The notes beneath the pieces were generated by a model that had not been told where the DNA came from, did no database searches, and saw nothing but the letters and a program-made list of their open reading frames with translations. Below, in pieces: positions 1-26,510 of a stretch of 64,000 bases of DNA (positions within the stretch are counted from its first letter, which is position 1; every line of letters begins with the position of its first letter). The position numbers and the translations under genes are program-made. The stretch covers positions 95,925 to 159,924 of the forward strand of contig CAMCOS010000001.1 of the NCBI GenBank assembly GCA_945876565.1, given 5' to 3'. Source of the DNA: Lautropia mirabilis. GTDB lineage: Bacteria; Pseudomonadota; Gammaproteobacteria; Burkholderiales; Burkholderiaceae_B.

Positions 1-927
1 AAAGCCCTCGCCGGCCTATGCGAGCACGGCCAGGTCGACTTTCAGGAATGCACTCATATCCAGACTGAGATTCAGACCATTAGTTTCAAGGACGGTCGCG
101 ACCTGAATGCGCTCGAAAAAGTCGGCGCTGACTGGACGGCGCGGGCAGCACTGGCACTGGAACGTCGAAAGCAGGCAGAGCCGCCTCTGCGCTCGGCCGA
201 GAAGCAGGTTGCCGCCAAGGAGCAGCAGGCAAGGGCACTGAGAGTCCGGCGCAACACTGCGGCGCTGGAGCAGGATCGCGGGCAACGTCTGCTTGAGGAA
301 CTCGAACGCTGGGAGAAAGCCTCCGGCTCGCCGGAAGCCGCAGATCAACTGGAAAAGTCGATTGCCCGCAGCGCTGAAATCGAACAGAGCATCAATGCCG
401 CGCGAGTGCAGCTCGCGACGCTCCAGCACGAAAGGTCTGCCCGTGAAAAATCGCTAGGTAAGTTGACCGATCTGCTCGTGCAGGAACTGCTTTCGAAGGA
501 AGCCGTCGGCGTCCTGGAGGTACGCGATGAAACCCGGCCATTCCGCCTTTCGCTCCGTGGTGGAGAAGCCTTCCGCGTGTTGGAAATCCTGATTGGCGAC
601 TTGGTATGCCTGCTCGACGCCAGCAACCCGGCCAGCGCCTTCCCCGGCCTGCTGATCCACGATTGCCCGCGCGAAGCCGACATGGGGCCGCGGCCCTACC
701 GCGATTACCTCCACTTGATCGAGCGCATCGAGCGTGAGGCGTACGGTGATGCTGCACCATTCCAGTACATTGTCACCACCACCACACCGCCGCCCGAATC
801 TCTTCAGGACGAGCCGTACCTGCGCTTGACACTTGATCCGAGTCACGACGAGGAGTTGCTGTTTGGGCGGCGGTTCAGAACGCAGGTACAAACAGAGCCC
901 CTTCAACCGGCAGAGCGGCAGACATGA
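1..927 (+). CDS. SMC/ABC-like coiled-coil ATPase, C-terminal part (5' truncated by window edge)
   Basis: Frame 1 is open from base 1 to TGA at 925-927. Long Glu/Arg/Gln-rich coiled coil, then GLLIHDCPREADMG (Walker-B/D-loop-like) and a C-terminal TTTTPPP...LTLDPSHDEELLFGRRF. The ORF track lists only the internal GTG start at 406. Confidence 0.7.
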   Translation, partial: KALAGLCEHGQVDFQECTHIQTEIQTISFKDGRDLNALEKVGADWTARAALALERRKQAEPPLRSAEKQVAAKEQQARALRVRRNTAALEQDRGQRLLEELERWEKASGSPEAADQLEKSIARSAEIEQSINAARVQLATLQHERSAREKSLGKLTDLLVQELLSKEAVGVLEVRDETRPFRLSLRGGEAFRVLEILIGDLVCLLDASNPASAFPGLLIHDCPREADMGPRPYRDYLHLIERIEREAYGDAAPFQYIVTTTTPPPESLQDEPYLRLTLDPSHDEELLFGRRFRTQVQTEPLQPAERQT

Positions 928-3900
928 CCATCATTCAGGCGAAATATCAACAGCTGGCTCCGCGAAGCGACTTCCTGAGCGATGTCGTTGTATTGGCACA
1001 GGCATGGAAGAAGACCCATACGGCAATCCGGAAACACAACTGGTACGCCGATATGCTGGAGCTTGATTGCTCAACGGTCGACCTTCAACGCCAGCTAGGT
1101 ATATGGGCTGAAGCTGTGACCCACAAGAATTTCGCGCCTGACTTCATGCGGTTGGTGCCTGCGCCGAAGAATTCACGATGGGAGTTCCCGACTGACCCTG
1201 AAAAGATTCAACTCGATGTGCTGGATATTCTCAGTACAGATGCAGAGCGCCTTCGGAAGCATGATCAAAACATTCAGTTTGATGCTTGGCGTGTAGCGGA
1301 GACTGGGGCGAAAGGTAATACGACAAGGGAGCAAAAACTTCGTCCCCTTGCGCATCTCTCCATCCGGGATCAGACCTTGGCGACCGCTGTGATGCTCTGC
1401 TTGGCAGACGCGGTGGAAAGTGCTCAAGGAGACACATCTGAACGAGACGGTATCAAAGCCCAGAGAGCAGGTATTTTTAGCTATGGCAACCGCTTGCATT
1501 GCCGATGGGATTCGTCCACCAAACCTCGCCCACGAGCATGTTTCGGCTGGGGAAACTCACGCACCTATAGCCAGTACTTTCAGGACTATCGGGTGTTTCT
1601 GGCGCGGCCACGCGGGGTTTGTGCAGAACTGGCCACGCAATTACCGGCCGGGCGTGAGCTCTACGTGGTTTCGCTGGACATCAAGTCGTTCTTCGATCAG
1701 GTTGATCGCACTGCGCTTGTCGGCCAGCTCAAGCAGCTCTATGCCGAATTTGCCGAAAGCTTCGGCCTTCCGGCTTCACTCTTGGCAGACGATGAATTCT
1801 GGAAGATAGCCGAGCGCATATTTTCATGGCAATGGGAATCGGCGGATCAACAGTATGCGCCGTTAATTTCACCCGACTCCCCGTTGCCGACGGGTCTGCC
1901 ACAAGGATTGATTGCATCAGGCTTCCTGGCCAACGCTTACATGATTGGCTTTGACCGTTTGATGGGCGAGGCACTCAATGCCTTGAGCCCTGAAAATGAC
2001 TTCATCATCCGAGACTATTGTCGCTATGTGGATGATATTCGGTTGGTCGTGGAGGCGCGACATGGCGATGGCGAGGATGCCGAAAAATTGGCGCGTGACA
2101 TCAGTGCTCGGCTTGATGAGCTATTAAAGCGACACATTTTGCAGATTGGCGCCAAGATTCCCCTGGTGTTAAACGATGAGAAGACGGCGGTAACACCGTA
2201 CAGATCGATATCTGCACAAAATAACCTGTCGGCCTTGATGGAGCTTTTGCAGGAAGCAATCAGCGGAACGTTCGATTTGGATTCTCTGGCCCAGGCTGCC
2301 GGTGGGCTTGATGGATTGCTCTGGATGTCTGAACAGTTGGACGATCCTCAGGCGCGGAAGAAGTCGCCGCTGGATCTGGCCAACATTGCAGTGCCCAACA
2401 CAGACGTTCGCGACGATACGGTAAAGCGATTCGTCGCAACCCGCATTGCATCGGCCCTCCGCATGCGCTTGGCGATGACGGATACCGAGGGAAAGGCGGA
2501 CAACGAAGCGGCGATCAATGATGAAGTGAACGCCGGGGCCGCATTGAGCCACGAGTTCGAGGCCATGGCGCGAAAGCTGATCAAGTGTTGGGCGGACAAC
2601 CCTGCCCTGGCCTTGCTGTTGAGAGTTGGATTGGATCTGTTTCCTCACCCCAGACTACTCGGGCCAGTGTTGGATGCGCTCGAAAGCAAGCTATACGCAA
2701 TCGCCAGGAAGGATAACGAGACGGCTTCCCATGAGGTGAAGGTTGCCGAGTATGTGGCCGCGGATCTGTTGCGAGCGGGAGCTTCGGAAACCGGCTACCG
2801 AGAGGATGCCGAATATCCAGACGCTGCTGATATTGGCCAGTATCGGCGCGACCTTGCCATATTTGCTCGACAAGTCTTGATCGAGCGAGAAAGTCATTCA
2901 CCTTGGTATCTCCGACAGCAGGCTCTGCTATTTCTTGCCTCAGTCGGTGATCATTCAGCAGCAACCACGGTATCGTCGGACCACCCTGATAATTATTCTC
3001 GGCTCCATCAGGCGATGCTCTATTCGCCTTGTCGCGATACCGATTTGGAAATTGCACTACCGCTTGCGCTGGTTGGGCAGCAACTCTCACCAGCTCCTGA
3101 CCGTTTCGCGGCTTGGCTAAACGAATGCCTTCGAGCCAGCAGAGATACCGAGGTAATTCGGCGAAGTGTGCTTACGGTGGCGCTCAATCGGCCTGACTTG
3201 ATTCAGGCCGCGATCAAGATAAGAACAGGCAAATCGGCAAGTTGGCGGCAGTTTGTGCCAACTTCGCTGAAGGCGTCACGCAATGGATCCACCAAGAAGT
3301 CGTTGCGGCTCGACAAGGGCGCTCGTTTACCGCTACTGCGGCTGATCTCTGCTCCGTTCAATCCTTTTTCTCAGGAGAACGGGTTGCTCGTGCTGGCGCA
3401 GGCATTGCTGGAGAAACCAGACATCGAGAAGATTCTCGCCGCTGGGTTGCACATCGGCGAAATTGAGGCGACGTGCAAGGATTGGTCACGGATTCAATCA
3501 CTGCCCGAGCACGAGCCGGACTTTCTCGAAATCACATTTGACCGTGACCAGGGGGTTGATCCTCTTTACGAGCCCCCTCCTTGGGTTGAGTCAGATGTGG
3601 CATGGCTCTATGGTTTGGGGAGAATCCTTCGTGCCTGCATTACGGGTGAGTTTGACTTCACGGCGGGACGCTATCTCACGACGGAGGATGCTTCACGATA
3701 TTACGGCCTGCGATCCACGTGGTTCAAAAGGCGGTTTGGATTATTGAACACCGGTCGCGGCCTGCTCGATGAGCCTGCGCCAATCTCGCCATGGCTCTCA
3801 AGTTTATTGTCCGTGTTACTGCAATGGCCGGGTACGGATATCAGGGGAGAGAACGCGGCGAAGCTACTCTGCGCGAAAACCCGCGTCGAAATTCTCGAGT

Positions 3901-4889
3901 CGATTCAGGAACGCATCGCCGTGCAGCGTGCGCTATATGGCGGTCAATCGGGTACGCCTATGTACGTTGTGCCAACTCAGGAGGATCTGCCTCCGGTTGC
4001 ACGACCCATGCGCATCGCAGTGGTTCAACCAATGCTCCCACGTCGGGACCAGTTCAACACCAAAGAACCATGCCGCTGGTCGGGGAAGCTGATGGCCGAA
4101 CATCGCCGCCACTTGGCTGAGGTGTGTCGCCTGACTCACCAGAAGCTGAAGACCTGGGTAAGCGCCCAGAAGGATGGGAAGGAAGACGACCGGAATCGCG
4201 AACCGATGGTTGATCTGATTCTATTTCCTGAACTGTCTGTTCACCCCGAGCACATTTCCCACCTGCGAGCTCTCTCAGATAAGGTTAAGGCATCGATATT
4301 CGTCGGGTTGACCTTTATCCAGCCCCCTAGGCATGCGGCCCCGATCAACCAAGGTTTGTGGCTGATCCGAACTGAAAATCCTGGTGGCGGAAGAACCCTT
4401 CAGTATGCCTGGCAAGGGAAAAAGCACCCGACTTCGCTCGAAGAGAAGATGGGAGTCAAAGGACATCGCCCACATCAGGTTCTGGTGGAGTTCCCTATCG
4501 GCACCCACACGCCAACGCGAGTGGCAGCCGCCATCTGTTACGACGCGACAGACCTGGCTCTGGTGGCTGATTTGCGCGAGCGGTCAGACGTATTTCTGGT
4601 TGCCGCGCTCAACCAGGATGTTCAGACTTTTGACAACATGGTTGCGGCTCTTCATTTCCACATGTACCAGCCTGTCGTACTGGCCAACATGGGCGAATTC
4701 GGTGGATCGACTGCTCAGGCGCCGCTGCCAAAATATGAGCGGCTGATCGCGCATGTCCACGGCGGCAATCAGGTTGCCGTCAGCGTGTTCGAGATAGATC
4801 CCAGTCTATTCAAGACGATTGCCAAGCCAAAACCCACACATGACTTGAAGACGCCTCCCGCTGGATACAAAGGCCGGCCACCATGTTGA
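924..4889 (+). CDS. Reverse transcriptase-nitrilase fusion, UG/DRT class-1-like defence RT (1321 aa)
   Basis: RT motif A (SLDIKSFFDQVD), motif B (PTGLPQGLIASGFLANAYM), YVDD box (codons 2025-2036). C-terminal carbon-nitrogen hydrolase: ILFPELSVHPEH (Glu codon 4230-4232) and AAICYDATD (Cys codon 4536-4538). Confidence 0.9.
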   Translation: MTIIQAKYQQLAPRSDFLSDVVVLAQAWKKTHTAIRKHNWYADMLELDCSTVDLQRQLGIWAEAVTHKNFAPDFMRLVPAPKNSRWEFPTDPEKIQLDVLDILSTDAERLRKHDQNIQFDAWRVAETGAKGNTTREQKLRPLAHLSIRDQTLATAVMLCLADAVESAQGDTSERDGIKAQRAGIFSYGNRLHCRWDSSTKPRPRACFGWGNSRTYSQYFQDYRVFLARPRGVCAELATQLPAGRELYVVSLDIKSFFDQVDRTALVGQLKQLYAEFAESFGLPASLLADDEFWKIAERIFSWQWESADQQYAPLISPDSPLPTGLPQGLIASGFLANAYMIGFDRLMGEALNALSPENDFIIRDYCRYVDDIRLVVEARHGDGEDAEKLARDISARLDELLKRHILQIGAKIPLVLNDEKTAVTPYRSISAQNNLSALMELLQEAISGTFDLDSLAQAAGGLDGLLWMSEQLDDPQARKKSPLDLANIAVPNTDVRDDTVKRFVATRIASALRMRLAMTDTEGKADNEAAINDEVNAGAALSHEFEAMARKLIKCWADNPALALLLRVGLDLFPHPRLLGPVLDALESKLYAIARKDNETASHEVKVAEYVAADLLRAGASETGYREDAEYPDAADIGQYRRDLAIFARQVLIERESHSPWYLRQQALLFLASVGDHSAATTVSSDHPDNYSRLHQAMLYSPCRDTDLEIALPLALVGQQLSPAPDRFAAWLNECLRASRDTEVIRRSVLTVALNRPDLIQAAIKIRTGKSASWRQFVPTSLKASRNGSTKKSLRLDKGARLPLLRLISAPFNPFSQENGLLVLAQALLEKPDIEKILAAGLHIGEIEATCKDWSRIQSLPEHEPDFLEITFDRDQGVDPLYEPPPWVESDVAWLYGLGRILRACITGEFDFTAGRYLTTEDASRYYGLRSTWFKRRFGLLNTGRGLLDEPAPISPWLSSLLSVLLQWPGTDIRGENAAKLLCAKTRVEILESIQERIAVQRALYGGQSGTPMYVVPTQEDLPPVARPMRIAVVQPMLPRRDQFNTKEPCRWSGKLMAEHRRHLAEVCRLTHQKLKTWVSAQKDGKEDDRNREPMVDLILFPELSVHPEHISHLRALSDKVKASIFVGLTFIQPPRHAAPINQGLWLIRTENPGGGRTLQYAWQGKKHPTSLEEKMGVKGHRPHQVLVEFPIGTHTPTRVAAAICYDATDLALVADLRERSDVFLVAALNQDVQTFDNMVAALHFHMYQPVVLANMGEFGGSTAQAPLPKYERLIAHVHGGNQVAVSVFEIDPSLFKTIAKPKPTHDLKTPPAGYKGRPPC

Positions 4890-4941
4890 ATCGCATTCAA
4901 ATATTTGCCATTGAAACAGCACGGTCCGAAGGAATAATCAG

Positions 4942-5658
4942 ATGACCCAAGAAACCACCCTGAGAATTTACAACGTTTATTGCGATGAGTCGTGCCACTT
5001 GGAGCACGACGGGCAGCCCATCATGGCGTTTGGCGCAACTTGGTGCCCCAAGGACGAGGCGCACCGGCTGGCCACCGAACTCAGGGACATCAAGAGTCGT
5101 CATCGCGCGCGAGGCGAACTCAAGTGGTCAAAAATTTCAGCGGCACGTCTTCCGTTCTACCTGGAGCTGGTCGACTGGTTTTTAGCCGAGCAGCCGCTGC
5201 ATTTTCGTGGCCTGGTTGTGCTGGACAAGCAGAATCTTGATCATGCGTCATTCAATCAGGGTGATCACGACGTCTTTTATTACAAAATGCAGTTCTCGCT
5301 ACTGAACAAAATATTGAGCCCCGATAGCCGGTATGCGATATATCTGGATGTCAAGGACACCAGAAGCCGCCTCAAACTCAAGAAACTGAAAGAGGTGCTG
5401 TGCAATAACGTGTATGACTTCACCAGCGACATGATTGGTCATATCCAGAACATTCACTCTCATGAATCTGAGCTGATGCAGGTGGCCGACTTTCTGACCG
5501 GGGCACTGGCCTATCGACATCGAGGGCTATCCGGAAATCCCGCCAAAATGCAGGTGATCGAGCATCTCGAAACCCGTTGGGGACGGTCGCTCTTGCAGGC
5601 GACCTCGTTACGAGAGCAGAAGCTCAATATTTTCCTTTTCCGTCCAAGGCAGGCATGA
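4942..5658 (+). CDS. DUF3800 domain protein (RNase H-like fold family)
   Basis: N-terminal YNVYCDESCHL, GELKWSKI, YLDVKDTRS and C-terminal SELMQVADFLTGAL are typical DUF3800 motifs. Confidence 0.8.
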   Translation: MTQETTLRIYNVYCDESCHLEHDGQPIMAFGATWCPKDEAHRLATELRDIKSRHRARGELKWSKISAARLPFYLELVDWFLAEQPLHFRGLVVLDKQNLDHASFNQGDHDVFYYKMQFSLLNKILSPDSRYAIYLDVKDTRSRLKLKKLKEVLCNNVYDFTSDMIGHIQNIHSHESELMQVADFLTGALAYRHRGLSGNPAKMQVIEHLETRWGRSLLQATSLREQKLNIFLFRPRQA

Positions 5659-5659
5659 C

Positions 5660-6136
5660 ATGGCCGCACATCCGACATGGCTGCCCGTAATATTTCCGAT
5701 GTCGCCTTGGTCAGAAGCAGTGATGGAAGCGCTTTATGCAATTTTCCGCCGCGACTTCGTCGACAACCCGGCGAGTTATCGAGGACACGGCGTATGGTTC
5801 TTCCCGGAAAAGGATCGCGGCAAGGAAAACATCTTCTGGCATTTGGTGGAGCGGGACGACAAGGGGACTGGCGCTCGCCTCCCGGATTTCCGTCGTTCTG
5901 AGAGATTGCCTTGGGCACGGCCAATGCTGGACAACCTGGGCCAGCCTGAAATTCTGGATTGGGACTATGCGGAAGGCGACAAAAGCATCCACACGTACGT
6001 ATGGCTCAAGGATTTCGACTATTTGATCGTGATGAAGAAGTACCCGAACGGGCAGCGCCGGTTGATAACGGCGTACTACGTCGATTACGAAAATACCCGC
6101 CGGAAACTACGGAAAAAATATGAGGGGCGGGTTTAG
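5660..6136 (+). CDS. Small protein, possibly BECR/RelE-like nuclease fold; family not securely assigned
   Basis: 158-aa ORF starting 1 nt after the DUF3800 stop. C-terminal DYLIVMKKYPNGQRRLITAYYVDYENTRRKLRKKYEGR resembles BECR-type toxin-like domains. An internal ATG at 5699 is an alternative start. Confidence 0.5.
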   Translation: MAAHPTWLPVIFPMSPWSEAVMEALYAIFRRDFVDNPASYRGHGVWFFPEKDRGKENIFWHLVERDDKGTGARLPDFRRSERLPWARPMLDNLGQPEILDWDYAEGDKSIHTYVWLKDFDYLIVMKKYPNGQRRLITAYYVDYENTRRKLRKKYEGRV

Positions 6137-6243
6137 ATGCTTGCAGAAATGAAAAGGCCGGCGCACGTGGCGTCGGCCCAACTCCTTCTGCCTTTGGCAG
6201 ATGAGATGACCAAATTATGGTCGTCTGATCGGCGGAAGTCAAG

Positions 6244-7023
6244 GTGTTCAACAGAGCCGGGGGGCGCATGCTCTCGGAGTTGAAGCTGCTGACACTGGCC
6301 CAGCTGGAGAAGGCCGCCATTGATTCCGGCTTTGATGTTGTTGGCGGGCTTGCCAGCAGGCTGATGTCGTTTCGTAGCAGCCAGTGTCCGCTGAAGGTTT
6401 GGCTCGGCATTATGGATGCTCGGCCACTGGTAGGCCTTTCCATGGCGAATGTTGCGGCCGAGATGGATCGTCTATCGATCTCAGCTCCTTTACCAGTTGA
6501 AGGTTGCCATGCATGGATCACCGCTGCGGATTTCGTTGATCTTGATCACTTGCTCGGTCGCGCTTTTGCACTATCACGAGCCCTTCCGAATCAGTTGCTC
6601 GAATCGTGGGAGCACCAGGTTCAAACGCTTTCTGCCACTGAACGTGAATCGGTTGTCCGCCAACGCGTAGGACAGGAGTTGTTTCGGGAGGGACTCCTGG
6701 CGCTCTGGGCTGGGCGTTGCGCGGTGACAGGTTTGGACGAACCCGTGCTGCTACGCGCCAGCCACGCCAAGCCGTGGAAGGATGCAAATGATGCAGAGCG
6801 CCTCGACGTCTACAATGGCCTGCTACTTGCGGCACACTTGGATGCAGCCTTCGACAAAGGCCTGATCACTGTGGATGAGAAGGGCATCGTCGTTCCAAGC
6901 CCAACATTGTCGCAACTGTCACTCCAGATACTTGGCCTGACCAGCGATCGGTCGATTGTGCATCTACGTTCCCAGCATCATCCCTATATGCGATGGCATC
7001 GGGAACATGTATTCCGGAAATGA
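6244..7023 (+). CDS. HNH endonuclease (HNH_2-like)
   Basis: GRCAVTGLDEPVLLRASHAKPWKDAN...LDVYNGLLLAAHLDAAFDKGLI is a classic HNH_2 core. GTG start at 6244 or ATG at 6268. Confidence 0.85.
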   Translation: MFNRAGGRMLSELKLLTLAQLEKAAIDSGFDVVGGLASRLMSFRSSQCPLKVWLGIMDARPLVGLSMANVAAEMDRLSISAPLPVEGCHAWITAADFVDLDHLLGRAFALSRALPNQLLESWEHQVQTLSATERESVVRQRVGQELFREGLLALWAGRCAVTGLDEPVLLRASHAKPWKDANDAERLDVYNGLLLAAHLDAAFDKGLITVDEKGIVVPSPTLSQLSLQILGLTSDRSIVHLRSQHHPYMRWHREHVFRK

Positions 7024-7236: not shown

Positions 7237-7824
7237 ATGCTACTGATGATCGACAATTACGATTCATTCACATACAACTTGGTGCAGTATTTTGGTGAAT
7301 TAGGCGAAGATGTTTGCGTATACCGCAACGATCAGGTAACGATAGAGGAAATTGAGAGCCTCCAGCCTGATCATATTTGCGTCTCACCCGGACCCTGCTC
7401 GCCTGCTGAAGCGGGTATTTCGGTGCCTTTGATCAAGCATTTCGCAGGCAAACTGCCGATTCTGGGGGTTTGCCTCGGGCACCAGTCGATTGGGGCCGCA
7501 TTTGGGGGGCGGATTGTTCGCGCCAAAGAGCTAATGCACGGCAAAACCTCCGACATCACCCACTTGGGCACAGACGTGTTTGCCAACTTGCCATCCCCAT
7601 ACACAGTCACGCGGTACCATTCTCTAGCCATTGAACGCGACACTTTGCCTCAGTGCCTGGTGGTGACAGCCGAAACACCGGACGGTGAAATCATGGGCAT
7701 CCGGCATCGGGATCTACCGATCTATGGCGTGCAGTTTCACCCAGAGTCGATCTTGACCGAGCACGGCCATGCGCTCTTGCAGAACTTTCTAAAACTGACA
7801 CACCCGATTGCCGCGGCAGCCTAA
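7237..7824 (+). CDS. trpG: Anthranilate synthase component II (glutamine amidotransferase)
   Basis: [32 protein letters not shown] motifs. Confidence 0.97.
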
Positions 7825-24899: not shown

Positions 24900-26315
24900 T
24901 TAATAACGGTAATGCTCAGGCTTGTAAGGACCGTCCTGATTCACCGTAATGTAGGCAGCCTGCTGCGGTGTCAATTCGGTCAATTGAGCACCGATCTTCT
25001 TCAAGTGCAAGCGAGCCACTTTCTCATCCAAGTGCTTAGGCAACACATAGACCTCACCGGCCTTGTACTGGTCATTGCGGGTAAAGAGCTCAACCTGCGC
25101 AATGGTCTGGTTGGTAAATGACGAGGACATCACAAACGACGGGTGACCGGTGGCACAACCTAAGTTAACCAAGCGGCCTTGCGCCAATAGGATGATGCGC
25201 TTGCCGTCCGGGAAGATCACGTGATCAACCTGGGGCTTGATTTCTTCCCACTTCAAATCTTCGATGCCAGCCACATCAATCTCGTTATCGAAGTGACCGA
25301 TGTTGCAAACGATGGCTTGATCTTTCATGCGCTCCATGTGTGCACGAGTAATCACGTGGTAGTTTCCAGTAGCCGTGACAAAGATGTCAGCTTTGTCGCA
25401 AGCCTCTTCCATGGTCACGACCTTGTAGCCTTCCATGGCCGCCTGCAAAGCGCAGATTGGATCGATCTCAGTTACCCATACTTGGGCGCGTAGCGCTGCG
25501 AGCGCCTGGGCAGAACCCTTGCCCACGTCACCGTAGCCGCAGACCACCGCAATCTTGCCAGCGACCATCACGTCAGTCGCGCGCTTGATGCCATCGACCA
25601 AGGATTCACGGCAACCATAAAGGTTGTCAAACTTGGACTTGGTTACCGCGTCGTTCACGTTAATGGCTGCAAATGCGAGCTCACCACGCTTGGACATTTG
25701 ATACAGGCGATGCACGCCCGTGGTCGTCTCTTCTGTGACACCACGGATCTGAGCCAGACGGGTCGAGTACCAGGTCGGATCACGCTTGATCTGATCACGA
25801 ATCGCCGAGAACAAGGCGACTTCTTCTTCAGAGGTGGGCTTATCGAGCACGGTGAGGTCTTTTTCTGCTTTAGAACCGAGGTGCAACAACAGGGTGGCAT
25901 CACCCCCATCATCCAGAATCATGTTGGCATGATGACCATTGGGCCATTCAAAAATGCGGTGCGTGTAGTCCCAATACTCGACCAACGATTCACCTTTCTT
26001 GGCAAACACCGGCGTCCCACTCGCGGCAATCGCAGCAGCAGCATGGTCCTGCGTTGAAAAAATGTTGCATGACGCCCAGCGCACTTCTGCACCCAAGGCC
26101 TGCAGCGTTTCGATCAGCACTGCCGTTTGAATGGTCATGTGCAGGCTGCCCGTAATGCGAGCACCCTTTAGCGGCTTGACCAGTTCGTACTCTTCGCGCA
26201 CAGCCATCAGACCGGGCATTTCGGTCTCGGCGATTTTGATTTCACGGCGACCCCATGGGGCCAATCCGATATCGGCAACGACGTAATCAGTAAATTTGTC
26301 TTTCACAGCGTTCAT
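24900..26315 (-). CDS. ahcY: S-adenosylhomocysteine hydrolase
   Basis: [50 protein letters not shown]-terminal HYRY. Confidence 0.97.
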
Positions 26316-26424
26316 GTCAATGAGCTCCATTCGTTCATCTGACAGCAACGCGGGAAATCGGCTGATCCCACCGCAATCACTGTCGTTTCAGGATTGGGCG
26401 AGCGCCGTTTGGATGAGGCAAGAA

Positions 26425-26510
26425 AAACTGATTTGCCTGCATACCAGATCACCTGAGCCTGGCGGGTGGAGAGATCCACACCGTCGCAACGCTCCTCAGG
26501 CAATCTTTGT
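26425..26510 (-). ncRNA. SAH riboswitch upstream of ahcY
   Basis: Minus strand reads GATTGCCTGAGGAGCGTTGCGACGG...CGCCAGGCTCAGGTGAT...GCAGGCAAATC: conserved GAGGAGCGYUGCGAC and CCAGGCUC segments with closing stem GATTGCCTG/CAGGCAAATC. Confidence 0.88.

Follow-up and report, generated by a model that had tools for sequence, protein, structure and literature searches.

The window analyzed here, a stretch of 64,000 nucleotides from Lautropia mirabilis, opens inside a gene for an SMC-like ATPase that starts upstream of the window and whose 3′ part occupies positions 1–927 of the plus strand. Four further genes follow on that strand, coding for a reverse transcriptase–nitrilase of the DRT1 type (924–4889), a DUF3800 protein identified by its domain match and as PADLOC candidate PDC-M04A (4942–5658), PADLOC candidate PDC-M04B (5660–6136), and an HNH endonuclease (6268–7023; the ORF is called from GTG 6244, and the ATG at 6268 is inferred from homologs). 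The stop codon of the SMC-like gene and the start codon of DRT1 share 4 nt in an ATGA overlap (924–927), and DRT1 is probably translated by coupling to the SMC-like gene. A trpG-like gene (7237–7824, plus strand), named by eye from its sequence, is the right neighbor of an island of approximately 32 kb that extends from a trpE-like gene lying outside the window on the left. Upstream of the window (L003, L036), the trpE-like gene is followed by several integrase-like genes, ParB-like genes (all of these named by eye) and then four large co-oriented genes. The integrase-like ORFs (425, 405, 314, and 342 aa) lie with a plasmid-replication-like ORF beside trpE (L036, 7906–15728), which suggests that the island is mobile. 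An Rfam scan returned only an SAH riboswitch far from DRT1 (26393–26503, minus strand), which scores above the gathering threshold and lies upstream of a 482-aa ORF (24900–26348, minus strand).

The ORF at 924–4889 reads through 1321 codons in one frame with no internal stop, and the 2.8-Mb genome contains one full copy of it, identical in sequence. Judged by its matches, the product is a DRT1 (Drt1a/UG1, class 3 DRT) made up of a reverse transcriptase, an α-helical middle part and a C-terminal nitrilase, with both active sites intact. The PADLOC Drt1a profile covers residues 4–1315 with 1386 bits (E = 0), and PDB entry 9YFD, titled ‘Defense-associated reverse transcriptase 1’ and the sole solved relative found by a single-protein search, matches with 536 bits (1.9e-159). 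A profile of ten DRT1s (alignment A1) in turn matches 9YFD over its full length with 1363 bits, and RVT_1 is matched above its cut-off. Such scores are far above chance, and we assign the protein to the DRT1 family on this basis. Taken as a protein, it is unremarkable, an intact DRT1 from an anti-phage family that is already known.

We assessed the active sites in an alignment (A4) of 13 intact DRT1s: the window protein, L005, L007–L010, L049, L050, L055, L056 (plasmids), and L072–L074 (viral contigs). Partial or broken DRT1s (L002, L011, L012, L013, and L051) were excluded from both A1 and A4, and two short fragments in A4, from the window and L005, were removed ahead of the 13-row counts. 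In the reverse transcriptase, the motif A aspartate D252 (SLDIKSFFD; 1677–1679), the motif B residues P326-Q327-G328 (within LPQGL, which starts at residue 325; 1899–1907) and the YVDD box at residues 368–371 (2025–2036), whose D370 and D371 correspond to D324 and D325 of 9YFD, are invariant (13/13). The same is true in the nitrilase of E1103 (FPELS; 4230–4232), K1166 (GKKHP; 4419–4421), which pairs with the lysine of GKFH in 9YFD, E1173, the first glutamate of SLEE (4440–4442), and C1205 (AICYD; 4536–4538), the predicted nucleophile and equivalent of C1116 in 9YFD. These four residues would constitute an E-K-E-C catalytic tetrad, completed by E1173. In the C-terminal lid (K1309–A1313; 4848–4862), K1309, P1312, and A1313 are likewise conserved in 13/13 rows, and K1219 and A1223 are the 9YFD residues of this segment. 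The candidate DNA-priming serine, S447 (2262–2264), is present in 13/13 rows of A4 and in 9/10 of A1, the lower count arising because a 2-residue gap is placed differently there; the HMM alignment also moves this gap, to a position after S447. We pair S447 with S402 of 9YFD because this gap placement is more economical and because most rows share an S-x3-D/E pattern.

These results bear out most of a preliminary description of the locus, which had recognized intact reverse transcriptase and nitrilase sites in one 1321-aa polypeptide: the frame is unbroken, and the YVDD box, motif A aspartate, PQG motif, and catalytic Glu (4230–4232) and Cys (4536–4538) that it named are all present and invariant. 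The alignment to DRT1/UG1-type references that it proposed as a check gave the Drt1a and 9YFD matches reported above. Its suggestion that a lysine inside HPTSLEEKMGVKG completes the catalytic triad did not hold, as that segment begins at residue 1168 and its lysines are poorly conserved. The lysines of EEK and VKG were rejected as catalytic candidates (K1175 occurs in 3/13 rows and K1179 in 3/10), whereas the invariant K1166 sits two residues ahead of the segment.

The gene also appears to be maintained by selection. Compared with its 72%-identical relative L005, the window DRT1 has a pS of 0.79 and a pN of 0.18 (pN/pS 0.23); we give pN and pS instead of dN/dS because synonymous sites are saturated. 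By part, pN is similar in the reverse transcriptase (0.21) and the middle (0.20) and lower in the nitrilase (0.12), where pN/pS falls to 0.16. Low pN alongside saturated pS indicates purifying selection on the window DRT1. When the nitrilase part (residues 928–1321) was predicted alone from five sequences, the model had a mean pLDDT of 62.5, which suffices for the fold and not for distances between the E, K, and C residues. This predicted domain aligns with C-N hydrolases with Z scores up to 18.6 (235 residues, 3.4 Å), in agreement with Foldseek, and the model thus supports a nitrilase-superfamily fold; structure prediction was another check that the preliminary description had proposed. 9YFD was absent among the structural matches listed for this part.

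One could nevertheless regard the gene as a decaying fusion, intact in appearance and released from selection. DRT1 remnants do exist in the same genome, on contig C68, and on a P. syringae plasmid. However, 1321 codons without a stop, the retention of every key residue and a pN/pS of 0.23 make such decay highly improbable. The preliminary reading of an active DRT1/UG1-type enzyme is instead favored by conserved counterparts of residues mutated in a homolog, by purifying selection and by the predicted nitrilase fold. The C68 remnant (L004, 4051–4215) comprises 53 residues resembling the DRT1 C terminus (53% identical), so the genome probably had a second DRT1 that has since been broken. The remnant on P. 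syringae plasmid pPma4326F (L051, 7995–8464) is a 98-aa ORF that matches the DRT1 C terminus and overlaps a DUF3800 fragment.

The Drt1a profile scored at least 390 bits in 8/398 genomes of the phylum, including this one, and five of the matches are full length and without stops. The other 60 relatives searched contained no full DRT1 match, with one partial match of 29% identity in the nitrilase part, and a further 368 genomes sampled from the class likewise gave no full match at E 1e-30. A scan of viral contigs with the window protein as single query found no relative, whereas the A1 alignment recovered three full-length DRT1s and one reverse transcriptase fragment; a phage collection yielded no DRT1 match.

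A FastTree phylogeny of the 13 DRT1s, midpoint-rooted for display, groups the window protein with L005, L007–L010, and L050 (support 0.987), and the other group holds the remaining six (L049, L055, L056, L072, L073, and L074). Drt1b occurs in the records of five of these six, the exception being L072; it adjoins DRT1 in L049, L055, and L056, and in L073 and L074 DRT1 is followed by TM-like proteins. Within the window's group, by contrast, a Drt1b-like match was seen in one genome alone (G261, L007), approximately 0.4 Mb from DRT1, where an AbiD/Abi_2 gene (479–1483, minus strand) overlaps the DRT1 stop codon and is a different possible partner. Profile searches of the window's genome gave no match to PDLC03821 or PDLC02172, so Drt1b was rejected as a partner here; confidence in this negative rests on the same search having found the positive records, with PDLC03821 detecting 4/4. 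Adjacent Drt1b is in any case not a defining feature of the family, being reported for approximately 18% of drt1 genes in PMC13275509. 9YFD is closest to L074 (2349 bits) and scores 536 bits against the window protein and 520 bits against L005; the window DRT1 and 9YFD belong to different clades.

The novelty lies in the operon setting of this DRT1 and not in the protein itself. The four large genes that precede DRT1 encode a DruE/YprA-type DEAD helicase (gene A, 1758 aa; DruE 300 bits, Pfam DEAD and MZB), an SNF2 helicase (gene B, 972 aa; DpdE 612 bits, DrmD 259 bits, Pfam SNF2), a DrmMI/PglX-like methylase (gene C, 1464 aa; DrmMI 211 bits, Pfam Eco57I) and the SMC-like ATPase (gene D, 669 aa from the chosen start; the listed ORF is longer). 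Upstream of DRT1, these genes present the order YprA-like helicase, BrxHII-like helicase, PglX-like methylase, and by gene order and gene kinds the surrounding operon can be classified as ARMADA type I-like. Our searches of the openly available literature and of the main text of PMC12458937 brought up no DRT1 located within an ARMADA operon; in that main text, the terms ‘SMC’, ‘DUF2326’, ‘DRT’, and ‘reverse transcriptase’ have no occurrences. Literature searches also found nothing on PDC-M04 or on defense genes nested with DISARM, BREX, and a reverse transcriptase, and nothing evidently related on DUF3800 with phage defense and reverse transcriptases.

To place this arrangement, we opened 19 methylase loci, drawn from 12/13 genomes (this one included; G157 left out), 2/10 SMC plasmid records, and 5/80 methylase plasmid records; because only part of the records was opened, the resulting tally is not a survey. 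Eight of the 18 loci besides the window have a downstream homolog of its HNH protein (36–45% identical), so that HNH is present in 9/19 (window, L053, L069, L076, L077, L079, L080, L082, and L085). In seven of these nine, the interval between methylase and HNH holds the SMC-like gene alone (L053, L069, L080, and L085) or is empty (L076, L077, and L082). The two with more cargo are the window, with DRT1 and PDC-M04A/B, and L079, with two small ORFs and a UvrD-like ATPase. Among the remaining 10 loci, L071, L086, and L089 end soon after the SMC-like gene and seven have no HNH in the stretch read. Overall, the SMC-like gene occurs in 11/19 loci and DRT1 in 1/19. Two of the seven loci without HNH in the stretch read also hold cargo past the methylase or SMC-like gene: L068 carries a UvrD-like and McrBC-like set (the latter named by eye), and in L083 PDC-M04A/B stands behind a 326-aa protein downstream of the ARMADA I-like methylase (4148–6258). 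In the ARMADA I-like operon of an Acidithiobacillus caldus megaplasmid (L076, 8349–8983), annotated Phd/VapC toxin–antitoxin genes lie between the SNF2 helicase and the methylase.

In the window, DRT1 and the DUF3800/PDC-M04B pair thus separate the SMC-like fourth gene from the terminal HNH gene, and the nesting of DRT1 in an ARMADA I-like operon is real in this genome. Base composition suggests a separate origin for DRT1, as its GC content (0.551) is below that of genes A–D (0.602–0.631); DUF3800 (0.524) and M04B (0.544) are also lower, as is HNH (0.562), so composition alone cannot mark the right edge of the cassette. No convincing repeats bound it. ARMADA gene matches were not found near the intact DRT1s of L005, L007–L010, L049, L055, L056, and L072–L074; for L050 the one match is a local one to a methylase domain, and for L048, a contig with a partial DRT1, it is an SNF2 match of 29% identity.

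How DRT1 relates functionally to its neighbors can be read in more than one way. We tentatively raise the possibility that, in ARMADA type I operons, the stretch between the methylase or SMC-like gene and the terminal HNH gene is a cargo site for whole defense modules. Here it would have received a DRT1 without Drt1b together with PDC-M04, co-translated with the operon, so that non-abortive and abortive layers would arise from one transcript. Alternatively, DRT1 might work within the ARMADA operon as a back-up effector, firing once the helicase/methylase system has been beaten, and not as a stand-alone system. The ATGA overlap with the SMC-like gene fits such a role, as does the position of DRT1 between SMC-like and HNH genes that no other gene separates in 7/9 HNH loci, and other cargo occupies the same region in L079, L083, and L068. 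We nonetheless consider this unlikely, given that the insertion was seen once, that the other intact DRT1s examined lack nearby ARMADA gene matches save for the local one in L050, and that the GC difference suggests a separate origin.

It is more doubtful still that DRT1, DUF3800, and PDC-M04B form a three-gene defense cassette in which M04A/B replaces Drt1b as partner or regulator. The three genes share a strand with gaps of just 52 and 1 nt, Drt1b has no match in the genome, and the overlap of the two gene fragments on pPma4326F recalls the same association. Yet M04A/B occurs without DRT1 in L083 and L067, no M04A/B match was found in the stretches around the other 12 aligned DRT1s, and the gap between DRT1 and DUF3800 contains a weak promoter-like site. 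That site (4911–4938) has 10/12 matches, and sites of this kind would turn up by chance as well. DUF3800 was rejected as a constant DRT1 partner, being absent near the other aligned DRT1s.

The window ORF is very probably a complete DRT1 of the clade without adjacent Drt1b, acting as a single-gene abortive-infection enzyme with S447-primed DNA synthesis and a nitrilase controlled by filaments and a lid. The 9YFD study (PMC13275509) reports that this homolog makes template-free DNA on S402 and forms tetramers and filaments, that its nitrilase is closed by the C-terminal lid, and that T4 escape mutants map to the dda helicase gene. There, phage protection is weakened or lost with D324N/D325N, S402A, C1116A, K1219A, and A1223F, and D324N/D325N and C1116A, which are equivalent to the mutants proposed in the preliminary description, abolish immunity. 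D324/D325, S402, C1116, K1219, and A1223 each have a conserved counterpart in the window protein. By analogy, the reverse transcriptase half would synthesize a short, template-free DNA primed by the protein's own S447, and the DNA-bound protein would first form tetramers and later quiescent filaments, with the lid shutting the nitrilase pocket. An activity of phage replication, for example a single-stranded DNA helicase, would release the nitrilase, which might then hydrolyze an essential small molecule or make a toxin, and the infected cell would stop. For the window protein, the proposal draws on family membership, intact residues, purifying selection, the predicted nitrilase fold, and the operon setting; DNA priming, filaments, the lid, the requirement for Cys and YVDD, and helicase dependence come from 9YFD alone. 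A counterpoint to this transfer of mechanism is that the window DRT1 shares only approximately 30% identity with L056, which represents the branch resembled by 9YFD, and falls in the opposite branch of the 13-sequence tree. Another is that the pairing of S447 with S402 hinges on where the 2-residue gap is put.

That one protein unites an intact reverse transcriptase and an intact nitrilase is something the literature already accounts for. The interest of the window DRT1 is that it comes from a clade outside that of the solved structure and holds all the residues needed to probe DNA priming and lid control across the family, and that its location within an ARMADA I-like operon enables a direct test of layered defense.

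Compared with known systems, the window DRT1 shares its reverse transcriptase–nitrilase architecture with the class 3 relative UG5, although the UG5-nitrilase profile scores only 147 bits on it, far below the 1386 bits of Drt1a. The Candidatus Contendobacter DRT1 (L005) is similar over its whole length, but lies outside any ARMADA operon and is followed by an AAA ATPase matching PADLOC HEC-01A. Homology to 9YFD also extends over the whole length, with reverse transcriptase, priming-serine, nitrilase, and lid residues in common with those described in PMC13275509. The two differ in size (1229 aa for 9YFD and 1321 aa here) and in kinship, since 9YFD lies near L074, whose record carries Drt1b, and the window DRT1 belongs to a clade without adjacent Drt1b. 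Finally, the operon shares with ARMADA type I, as set out in PMC12458937, the order of YprA-like helicase, BrxHII-like helicase, and PglX-like methylase, and it extends that core after the methylase with the SMC-like ATPase, DRT1, DUF3800, PDC-M04B, and HNH genes.
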